Shown here in pieces: positions 18,910 through 22,443 of a stretch of DNA of 64,000 nucleotides (the first letter of the stretch is position 1; each line of letters opens with the position of its first letter). Where the stretch lies: contig NZ_CCXM01000001.1 in assembly GCF_000825685.1 (NCBI RefSeq), forward strand, positions 558,001 through 622,000, read 5' to 3'. Source of the stretch: Rickettsia hoogstraalii (lineage in GTDB: Bacteria > Pseudomonadota > Alphaproteobacteria > Rickettsiales > Rickettsiaceae). Position numbers and translations under genes: made by a program. The notes under the pieces were generated by a model, which was not told the DNA's origin, did no database searches, and saw only the letters and a list, made by a program, of their open reading frames with translations.

Positions 18910-21900
18910 GTGTTAAAAAAATATTTATTATTTTTCTTATTTTCATTTTTCTCATTTAATGTGCAGGCATCTATTTGGGGTGATATAGCCGATTGTCTTA
19001 GCGATCCCTGTAATTGCGGACAAAGCGATAGAACGGAAATTTGGAATAAAGGCGGCAACAATGAGGTAAAAAGGGGACCTTTTAAACCTGATACATTGTG
19101 TCCACCTTGGAATAAAAGCGACGGTCGTGGTAGCGGCAAATCTGATGATAAAACCGACAATTGTTTATTAAAATTTGATTACCCAGGTACATTTATTGGT
19201 TTTTTACTCAATAGATGTGCGGAAGAAGCCCCTGATAGTAGTTACTTCACTCCAAAAATTCGTATTAGAGTTCAAAGCTGTAATGCTGCCGCTTGTTGGC
19301 ACCAAAACTCCACCTTAAATTGGGATGGAGAATGTGTATTATGGCCTACGGGTTACGGTCTACCTCTAACTAGAGTCTGTGCTAGAGTTGCCGTACCGGA
19401 TATATCTCCACCTCCCGGAATAAACGCTACACCTTCCCCTGCAGATCCAGGTTATACCGATGGAGTACATCTCAATAAAGTCGGTTATACAGAAACTGAT
19501 AATAAGATAATAGGTGTAGACGGAAAAATAGTTACTTTAAAATCTCCTAAACTTTGTGCTTATAGCGACCCTGGACTTGTTAACCTTGTTTCAGATTCCG
19601 GTGTACATCTTGATCCGATGGACTGGAATCCTAATCGTCAACCTCTTCATCAAACTAACGAACTTAGTCCTATTGCAAAAGTATTAAAATTTTTAGTTGA
19701 AACGGTAAAAGGAGCAAGTTTACCAAGTTTATTAGGGCAGCTTCTTGGTATGATAAATCAAGATTCAGAATTTATAAAAGTACTTCAATCAATACTTAAC
19801 GCAATAGGAGAGGTTTTTAATTTTTTCCCTAGTTTAATAATAACAGTTATTGAAAAACTTGGATCATTAAACGGTTCTGTAGATAGCTATTCTTTTGGTT
19901 GTGTACAATTACCTTTAGGACCTTTTCCACCGCCATATTGCCCAAATTTAGATTATATTAGTATTAATGCTAATGCTAATAATATATGTAGCATAAAAAA
20001 TACCCCAGAGGATATTCAGAAAGGAAAACCTGTATTTAAACAATCTTCAACTTTGCCGCCTTGTGTAGTATCAAATGTTAACAACAATATTGTTAATAAT
20101 ACCATACGTGTTAGCTTTAGCAATCTTGTTCCGCTTTGCACGAGTTCTACCTCTGATCTCAAAACTTGTGTAGAACCACGTAATACAGATTTTCTTTCAG
20201 CAAAAATTACTCATACTAATACGGCTTTTAAAGATTTAATTAAATCGTGTAAGAATACTTCAGGAGGCACTCCATGTATTAATACAGAAATTTCTACGCC
20301 ATGTAGTGTTACGGCTAACGGTTGTAATGAGGGATTTAGAATAGTATATTCGCAGAAAATTGGAAATGTAGAAACACCTAGCGATTATTACATAGAGGAT
20401 ATACCGGACTGTCCAAGTTCTAGTTCAACTACCTGCCAAAAAGTATGGGGAGTTAATATAGGCGAATTTAAGGATGTAAGCGTAAAGTTTCCTAAGATAC
20501 AAGGGCAAGATACAAATAGCTTAATACCTATAAAGACAGATGTCACCCTAAAAGACAATAACGGTAAAGATAGAAAACTTTATGTCTCTATTAGTAATAC
20601 CGAAGACGATAAGCAAAATCCTAATAATATTTGCTTATTTGAGTCCGGTAATTTAATAGATTGCGTACCGAGAGTAAATCATTCTTATAGTCTAGCTGCT
20701 TATGAATGTTCAAGACAATATGCCGGAATTACCTGTACTAATAACAATGCCAACGATGCTTATTATAAACCGCAATTCATTGCTTCAGTGCAAGTAAGAG
20801 AGAAACAAACAGATGGGACTATTAACATTATAGATGAAACAAGCACTCTTGTAACACCGTTAGCATACGCCGGACCTCCACCTCCCAATCCCACGGACAC
20901 AGAAAGTATAGTAATGCTTGCCGGTTATAAGTATAGTTCTTCCGTTGCGTTTATACCTAAAGATCCACCAAAAGATCCGACAAATGATAAATATATTGCT
21001 ATGCCGTTTTCAGGAGAGAATGCTCTAAATCAGTTGACTATTCACGGTAAATATAAAGACGATAAAGAACCTTATGATAGTAATGGAAAACCTGACTCAA
21101 GTGCGGTATATTTAAAATATTTAGAATATATAAACGGTAAATATATCCAAGGTGGAACGCATGCCTGCTTGATGCCGAAAAATTTCCAACATTGTAATCC
21201 TATGCCGATTTCTACTTTACCTGATGGATCACCTATTCCCGGTTATAATAATGACTCGATAAATTGTGTACTTGCTAAACTAAACAACAACAATACTATA
21301 AATTGTAAGAATTTTAAAAATACATATAGCCTTAAATATCCAAACCTTGGTTTATGCAGCAAAGATATAAATACAAGTAGCTGTACTCTAAAAGAAACAG
21401 TGGAAGGTATTACTATTTATGCTTGCAATATAAATAATATTCCAAGTAACTGCTATACTAATAATAATAGCCCTAATACTCCAGTATGTGTTTTAAGTAG
21501 GGATTATAAAGATAGAATCGAGCCAGGACCTGACAAAGGACCAACATTAGTACCATTAGATGATTCTTTTAAATATTATACAGTGAAATATACAGCAGGA
21601 GATGAAAACCATCCTCCAGAGCCGACATATAAAGCTGAGACTGAGGATGTAAGAGATAAAACTTGGCAAGAGCTAGATCTTTGTGCTCCTATATTAGTAC
21701 CTACTTGTGCTAAAATTCCTAGCACAGCTGATGCTCCTTCCGGTAGCACCCACGGTAATGCAGAATGGGATGAAAGCGATATAGGAGAACTTGCAATAGG
21801 AAGATGCCCGACGAATTGGATAGTTATTGATCCTAGTAAACCTTTAGAACGCCATTGTTTATCATATTCTGATAGAAAAGTTGTTGAATTTGAACCTTTA

Positions 21901-22443
21901 GGTCAAAATGTCGGCTGTAGAGAATCTACAGGATTGCCTATAAAAGTTGGTTATAACGACTTTCCATCAAGTCAATTACCTGAGACCCCTTATAATCCGG
22001 TAACTAAAATAGGTGACTATATCTTAAACAAAAAACCGGTACCACAGGGGAGTATTATGGCATTTCCAAAGGATGGGGCATTTATAGATGCAACAAATAA
22101 ACCGGAAAATACAATATTGCATACTGTAGAATTCAAAGTAACTTTAGATTCAATAATGGACGATATTGAGTATTTTGAAGTAAAAGATTTATGGTATGAT
22201 GATTGCACATTAATATATGTCAACGGCCAAAAGCTACTTAGCCTCCCCACTGACGTTAATTCTCTAGATGAGAAAAGGTACTGTAACAATGGAAATGACC
22301 AAGGTCAAGCATTACAAGCTAAGAATTTACCGATTGATATAAAGCGTTATTTAAAACAAGGAGAAAATACTATCAGATTCCAGCTAAGAGTTATGTTTGG
22401 TGGAGGACTATATTTCCACATGCAATATAAAATGAAGAGATAA
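18910..22443 (+). CDS. Giant cysteine-rich secreted protein, possibly TraN-like
   Basis: A 1177 aa protein with a clear signal peptide (LLFFLFSFFSFNVQA, cleavage near residue 21) and more than 40 cysteines, so it should fold with many disulfides outside the inner membrane. An N-terminal block (CNAAACWH, GECVLWPTGYGLPLTRVCARVAVP) is compact and Cys-rich. Residues about 1045-1177 (WYDDCTLIYVNGQKLL, IDIKRYLKQGENTIRFQL, GGGLYFHMQYK) look like a galactose-binding-type jelly roll similar to the one I recall in the conjugative pair-stabilising protein TraN. The start is GTG. TerC starts 4 bases after its stop. Its place behind rvhB4b suggests a surface or T4SS role. The signal peptide and Cys pattern are seen; the TraN link is inference. 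Confidence 0.7.
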   Translation: MLKKYLLFFLFSFFSFNVQASIWGDIADCLSDPCNCGQSDRTEIWNKGGNNEVKRGPFKPDTLCPPWNKSDGRGSGKSDDKTDNCLLKFDYPGTFIGFLLNRCAEEAPDSSYFTPKIRIRVQSCNAAACWHQNSTLNWDGECVLWPTGYGLPLTRVCARVAVPDISPPPGINATPSPADPGYTDGVHLNKVGYTETDNKIIGVDGKIVTLKSPKLCAYSDPGLVNLVSDSGVHLDPMDWNPNRQPLHQTNELSPIAKVLKFLVETVKGASLPSLLGQLLGMINQDSEFIKVLQSILNAIGEVFNFFPSLIITVIEKLGSLNGSVDSYSFGCVQLPLGPFPPPYCPNLDYISINANANNICSIKNTPEDIQKGKPVFKQSSTLPPCVVSNVNNNIVNNTIRVSFSNLVPLCTSSTSDLKTCVEPRNTDFLSAKITHTNTAFKDLIKSCKNTSGGTPCINTEISTPCSVTANGCNEGFRIVYSQKIGNVETPSDYYIEDIPDCPSSSSTTCQKVWGVNIGEFKDVSVKFPKIQGQDTNSLIPIKTDVTLKDNNGKDRKLYVSISNTEDDKQNPNNICLFESGNLIDCVPRVNHSYSLAAYECSRQYAGITCTNNNANDAYYKPQFIASVQVREKQTDGTINIIDETSTLVTPLAYAGPPPPNPTDTESIVMLAGYKYSSSVAFIPKDPPKDPTNDKYIAMPFSGENALNQLTIHGKYKDDKEPYDSNGKPDSSAVYLKYLEYINGKYIQGGTHACLMPKNFQHCNPMPISTLPDGSPIPGYNNDSINCVLAKLNNNNTINCKNFKNTYSLKYPNLGLCSKDINTSSCTLKETVEGITIYACNINNIPSNCYTNNNSPNTPVCVLSRDYKDRIEPGPDKGPTLVPLDDSFKYYTVKYTAGDENHPPEPTYKAETEDVRDKTWQELDLCAPILVPTCAKIPSTADAPSGSTHGNAEWDESDIGELAIGRCPTNWIVIDPSKPLERHCLSYSDRKVVEFEPLGQNVGCRESTGLPIKVGYNDFPSSQLPETPYNPVTKIGDYILNKKPVPQGSIMAFPKDGAFIDATNKPENTILHTVEFKVTLDSIMDDIEYFEVKDLWYDDCTLIYVNGQKLLSLPTDVNSLDEKRYCNNGNDQGQALQAKNLPIDIKRYLKQGENTIRFQLRVMFGGGLYFHMQYKMKR

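Follow-up and report, generated by a model that had tools for sequence, protein, structure and literature searches.

A large cysteine-rich protein encoded beside rvhB4b in Rickettsia hoogstraalii, a candidate adhesin or tip-like part of the rvh type IV secretion system

A large cysteine-rich protein, here called X and proposed to be an adhesin or tip-like partner of VirB4b, is encoded beside a gene of the rvh type IV secretion system (T4SS) in Rickettsia hoogstraalii. The window, the whole stretch of 64,000 nucleotides analysed, covers positions 558001-622000 of contig 1 in a two-contig genome of 1.48 Mb; X lies at 18910..22443 on its forward strand. Upstream on the same strand sits rvhB4b (RvhB4-II; 16265..18712; TIGR00929, E 2.5e-228), a VirB4 paralogue that keeps Walker A and has DN in place of DE in Walker B. 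This change agrees with the seven changes in the nucleoside triphosphate cleft reported for Rickettsia VirB4b (PMC2653234). The second VirB4 of the rvh system has been described as isolated from the remaining vir genes and as possibly inactive (PMC2653234; PMC13203960), and the virB4 duplication has been dated to the last common ancestor of Rickettsiales (PMC9352585). A spacer of 197 bp (18713..18909) separates rvhB4b from X. It contains an inverted repeat (GTCATTGCGAG ... CTCGCAATGACG), which we take to resemble a Rickettsia palindromic element. Downstream, a TerC/Alx gene (22448..23353, forward strand; TIGR03718, E 6.8e-106) begins 4 bp past X.

The open reading frame (ORF) of X has a GTG start, at a position consistent with the family consensus MLKKY..., and encodes 1177 residues, 43 of them cysteine. 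A first-pass annotation of this DNA had described a giant Cys-rich ORF with a signal-like start between these neighbours, and this is confirmed. The N-terminus is hydrophobic and, judged from its sequence, signal-like (MLKKYLLFFLFSFFSFNVQAS), with a putative signal peptide at residues 1-21 (...NVQA/S; 18910..18972). The closest named relatives are from Ca. R. kedanie and R. australis (94% each). An alignment of 39 rows, with identities down to 31%, has 31 cysteines marked as invariant, and the cysteine richness is therefore not due to chance. The best-conserved region is an N-terminal Cys-rich core (residues 22-163; 18973..19398), where mean pairwise identity is 0.66 (1378 pairs of Rickettsiaceae alignment rows). 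A hydrophobic or amphipathic segment (residues 253-320; 19666..19869), recognised from hydropathy and low-confidence AlphaFold helices, precedes a proline motif and possibly contacts the membrane; its mean identity is 0.44. The most hydrophobic stretch of the protein directly precedes this motif in 31 of 38 scorable Rickettsiaceae rows, with a mixed picture in X outside the family. The alignment gives a family signature, CVQLPLGPFPPPYC, at residues 331-344 (19900..19941), and the X-type proteins of Wolbachia and of further families also contain stretches resembling it.

The C-terminal part of X consists of a putative sushi/HRM-like domain (residues 916-1006; 21655..21927) and a galactose-binding-type jelly roll (residues 1007-1177; 21928..22440). 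The AlphaFold model is mostly beta with a helical segment in the middle, and its C-terminus is a predicted beta-sandwich with a predicted local distance difference test score (pLDDT) of 79-93 over residues 1031-1177 (blocks of ten). For residues 340-700 the prediction drew on only seven sequences and has a mean pLDDT of 39.6. Conservation is lowest in the jelly roll (mean identity 0.40, 1225 pairs), the helical segment being nearly as variable; the low value fits a contact domain and also plain relaxed constraint. Membership of a described whole-protein family was rejected, as X gave no family match in Pfam or NCBIfam at E up to 1 and no match to PDB chains in single-sequence or profile searches. 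Foldseek of the model against the PDB returned nothing at E <=0.001, a test that hardly covers the middle of X.

An order-wide sample of 306 genomes was searched with X profiles at a threshold of E 0.001, and 97 genomes gave matches. These comprise 62 of the 66 Rickettsiaceae (family f1) genomes and 35 genomes outside the family, the latter with partial matches only. Three of the four Rickettsiaceae genomes without X (G211, G214 and G235) are also without VirB4 (PF03135); the fourth (G297), 86% complete, has one VirB4. At least two VirB4 genes are carried by 61 of the 62 genomes with X, and the remaining one (G244) has one VirB4 and a partial X at a contig end. The three VirB4-less genomes measure 0.6 Mb and belong to genera g8 and g11. 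They have apparently lost the T4SS and, falling in two genera, represent few independent losses at most. Adjacency was counted over 41 Rickettsiaceae loci, some genomes being represented twice; two loci start inside X, and virB4b is the next gene upstream in all 39 whose DNA extends that far. X thus shows both the genomic linkage and the co-absence of an rvh component, the latter checked against VirB4 only. The first-pass annotation had suggested a tie to the T4SS, to be abandoned if the gene were found in species lacking that system; the order-wide synteny and the co-absence support the tie. X is tied to the T4SS at the gene level, and this is far firmer than its role as an adhesin or tip.

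By comparison, TerC is the gene after X in 17 of 19 loci of the same genus and in none of 11 loci of genus g2 (flanks of up to about 1.5 kb). The TerC neighbourhood is therefore local and that of virB4b general, and TerC, earlier listed as a partner gene, is an incidental neighbour. The size of X, its variable C-terminus and its signal-like start would also suit a translocated effector or secreted matrix protein that is no part of the machine. We consider this very improbable, since X is mostly single-copy, holds a constant position next to a machine gene, is found in nearly the whole family, has conserved cysteines and contains no effector-type domain.

X is not specific to Rickettsia. VirB4 proteins from 52 genomes (families f2-f29 except f21) were divided into high-scoring VirB4a and a lower-scoring class of VirB4b and others. 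Flanks of VirB4 genes beyond the first in each genome were compared at 62 loci, 49 from these genomes and 13 pre-selected through the X profile. An X-type gene adjoins VirB4 in 22, X lies 0.6-1.2 kb away in three, a VirB6-type gene adjoins in 14 (ten by Pfam, four by transmembrane count only) and neither is found in 23; without the 13 X-selected loci the counts are 9, 3, 14 and 23. Families with X after virB4b are f1, f7, f10, f13, f17, f19, f25, f27 and, tentatively, f24. A VirB6-type gene takes this place in eleven others (f6, f8, f9, f11, f16, f18, f20, f22, f23, f26 and f29). The loci with neither include two of f5 with a multi-transmembrane ORF upstream of virB4b, early-ending contigs, foreign-looking VirB4-like genes (L071, L072, L078, L095 and L117) and two loci assigned by eye (L089 and L107). 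As a control, VirB4a is followed by a multi-transmembrane VirB6-type gene in 10 of 11 loci, the remaining one being truncated where its contig stops.

The ORFs matched by the X profile in f7, f10, f17, f25 and Wolbachia-type genomes encode large, Cys-rich proteins and come directly after virB4. One f10 genome (G165, locus L059) has the Rickettsia-like order tatC, serS, one small ORF, virB4b and an X-type gene. Genus g77 of f19 is Wolbachia, a member of Anaplasmataceae, since the X-type protein of locus L053 has the same sequence as one from the Encarsia formosa Wolbachia symbiont. Small ORFs upstream of virB4b matched the VirB2/TrbC pilin family (PF04956) in nine of ten cases tested, of which six belong to f19, two to f12 and one to f5; the Wolbachia small ORF gave no PF04956 match. 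Within f19, VirB2 lies upstream of virB4b in six of eight loci examined, the two without it being Wolbachia (L053 and L101), and X follows downstream in five of these six (none was found in L111). The order VirB2 pilin, VirB4b, X is thus that of most sampled relatives of Wolbachia. A virB2/virB4-2 cluster has been reported in Anaplasma (PMC3556328, PMC7648143), and in Neorickettsia virB2 lies upstream of virB4, and in a relative VirB2 localises to the cell poles (PMC5481527); the available text of these three papers does not name the gene that follows virB4. Two further VirB2 arrangements were seen beside virB4b, a single ORF directly after it that fuses VirB2 pilin and VirB6 (L097, 6535-9102) and an upstream ORF with two tandem VirB2-like stretches (L089, 3048-3704).

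The conserved pairing bears on the possibility that X is a surface adhesin mechanically unlinked to the T4SS, left beside virB4b by chance ancient gene order. The 197-bp spacer towards virB4b compared with only 4 bp towards TerC would be in keeping with this, as would the reported isolation of rvhB4-II among non-T4SS genes (PMC13203960) and the 23 of 62 loci with neither X nor VirB6 after VirB4. Yet several families keep the virB4b-X pair amid changing neighbours, its genes often overlap, and X and VirB4 are jointly absent from the three reduced genomes. We therefore regard an unlinked adhesin as improbable.

A FastTree phylogeny of 93 VirB4 proteins places all 33 VirB4a in one clade. Among VirB4b, a clade with support 0.97 contains the X loci except those of f24 and f27, and all 12 VirB6-neighbour loci fall outside it; it also includes f2, f15 and single f14 and f10 loci without adjacent X. 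Both Walker motifs, A and B, are intact in all 33 VirB4a, in 8 of 12 VirB4b beside VirB6 and in only 2 of 23 beside X. The counts are not independent (Wolbachia supplies four of the 23 loci). The two X-neighbouring exceptions are exactly f24 and f27. The remaining classes gave 0/2 with an upstream multi-transmembrane ORF, 0/3 with X further off, 5/5 for the foreign-looking genes and 3/15 for the others.

Rickettsiaceae X matches that of f7 strongly in hhalign (probability 99.9%, E 9e-37), followed by f25 (98.9%), f17 (98-99%) and f27 (93%). The match to f10 (81-91%) lies in the sushi part and that to f19 (67-80%) in 25 columns around the signature; f13 and f24 score 45% and 26%. Between the X proteins of f19 and f13 the match is 99%. 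Given the weak profile scores of the distant proteins, their membership depends in part on the signature and on where the gene lies. The C-termini differ. In the Wolbachia protein of L053 the C-terminus is Gly_rich_2 (PF21722, E 2.4e-5), a match not obtained for X of L054, and f27 X matches f19 X in the glycine-rich C-terminal part (87%, hhalign). A 2167-residue X (L060, 4365-10865) contains five jelly-roll stretches interleaved with sushi-like repeats, and some Rickettsiaceae X of about 950 residues stop short of the jelly roll. One further ORF (L052, 6357-8798; 814 residues, 50 Cys) has a signal-like start and a PPSPPAFC stretch and lies about 0.7 kb past an rvhB6e-type gene. It is possibly an X relative relocated beside VirB6.

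VirB6 thus invites comparison, as in other families VirB6/TrbL takes the gene place after virB4b that X has here. The comparison with VirB6 proposed in the first-pass annotation was made by hhalign with seven X profiles against VirB6 sets a-e (d and e being single sequences) and two order-wide VirB6 sets, and gave no significant relation (best 10.5%). VirB4a profiles likewise gave no more than 10.5%. Some weak matches landed on one common stretch of VirB6a/b; X as a relative of VirB6 ectodomains was dropped at these scores. No TrbL domain (PF04610) was found in X by Pfam at E up to 1, a further difference from VirB6. X could be a periplasmic T4SS assembly part standing in the VirB6 place of the virB4b cassette, with C-terminal domains that bind periplasmic proteins. 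The VirB6-type genes at the 14 loci in eleven families, the missing TrbL domain and the hydrophobic stretch before the proline motif (31 of 38 Rickettsiaceae rows, mixed elsewhere) point this way. Against it stand the lack of significant similarity to VirB6 and the C-terminus, whose TraN-type jelly roll and switch to a glycine-rich domain look like receptor-contact modules. We consider such an assembly part unlikely.

The first-pass annotation had likened the jelly roll to conjugative TraN adhesins, and for that domain the likeness holds. The profile-profile match to TraN-linked jelly rolls of Rickettsiales has a probability of 98.6% (hhalign, E 6e-16, 24% identity), from which we judge the two homologous. 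The X jelly-roll profile matches ORFs within F-type tra operons of other Rickettsiales, where the jelly roll shares one ORF with the TraN base (L064 and L068) or occupies the ORF immediately before TraN (L063, L065, L066 and L067). As a hidden Markov model it gave E 1.5e-18 to 3.9e-12 in seven of ten TraN-linked ORFs, the three IncC-type TraN being under the threshold, and E 2e-16 for a Pseudomonas ORF directly before TraN. Among 1342 ORFs searched, matches were restricted to one X and TraN-linked ORFs. The match to IncC TraN is weaker (82%, E 1e-5) and falls inside the tip region. In the 932-residue IncC TraN of L152 the jelly roll spans about 267-375, and the tip of a 932-residue IncA/C TraN is 205-354 in a study showing that tips determine recipient specificity (PMC13104618); the two ranges can be compared provided that these equally long proteins are identical. 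Binding of an outer-membrane receptor by the tip is published for TraN only (PMC9246713, PMC13104618). A tblastn search with one TraN-linked jelly-roll ORF matched 1053 of 72,556 plasmids, and 40 rows spread down the ranking comprised 34 annotated TraN, four hypothetical proteins and two without features. Three E. coli F-like TraN gave no hhalign match to the X jelly roll.

X itself was rejected as a TraN. The TraN base (PF06986) is absent from X (Pfam at E up to 1) and from its own genome, and X lies outside any F-type tra operon, between rvhB4b and TerC. X and TraN of the MPF_F system are both Cys-rich, are both encoded beside T4SS genes and have the jelly roll in common; X differs in having no PF06986 base, in its place beside an rvh VirB4 paralogue and in carrying the jelly roll C-terminally, after the sushi-like domain.

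Taking these observations together, we somewhat favour X as an adhesin or tip-like part of the rvh T4SS. X would be exported by Sec and would form its many disulfides in the periplasm. Its conserved N-terminal modules may hold it at the envelope, beside the pilus-building machinery of VirB4b and VirB2. The variable C-terminal domains, sushi and jelly roll in Rickettsia and a glycine-rich domain in Wolbachia, would be displayed outside the cell and touch the target membrane, like the TraN tip in F-type conjugation. X would then occupy the place of VirB5, the rvh T4SS having been described without one (PMC2653234, PMC11077975). The likeness to VirB5 and the T-pilus tip is one of proposed surface position in a VirB2/VirB4 pilus system. 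The solved VirB5 relative TraC consists of three helices and an appendage (PMC2653234), whereas X is large and mostly beta, with no VirB5 family match in Pfam at E up to 1 and no VirB5-like helical fold in the model. Sca autotransporters and other rickettsial surface antigens are likewise large predicted surface proteins; X differs in its link to the T4SS and in having no autotransporter domain. Surface-proteome data (PMC3415449, PMC3720918), in the portions available, could not be mapped to the X gene.

More tentatively, and with rather less than even confidence, host-associated Rickettsiales may have rebuilt an ancestral set of genes for pilin, active VirB4 and VirB6 as a cassette of pilin, pseudo-ATPase VirB4b and X. 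X would then be an exchangeable tip or adhesin equivalent to VirB5/TraN, its jelly-roll, tandem-sushi and glycine-rich modules swapped between lineages that meet different hosts. The literature searched nowhere describes the X gene as part of a T4SS; the search covered passages of the papers, and an earlier mention is possible. X would be a conserved VirB4b partner from Rickettsia to Wolbachia, with a TraN-tip-type domain in Rickettsia and its kin. If so, the rvh T4SS gains a candidate host-contact part, the retention of VirB4b is explained, and contact between T4SS and host in obligate intracellular bacteria becomes directly testable.

Beyond the TerC gene, two overlapping ORFs in the window (23397-24109) together resemble a single outer-membrane barrel protein interrupted by a frameshift.
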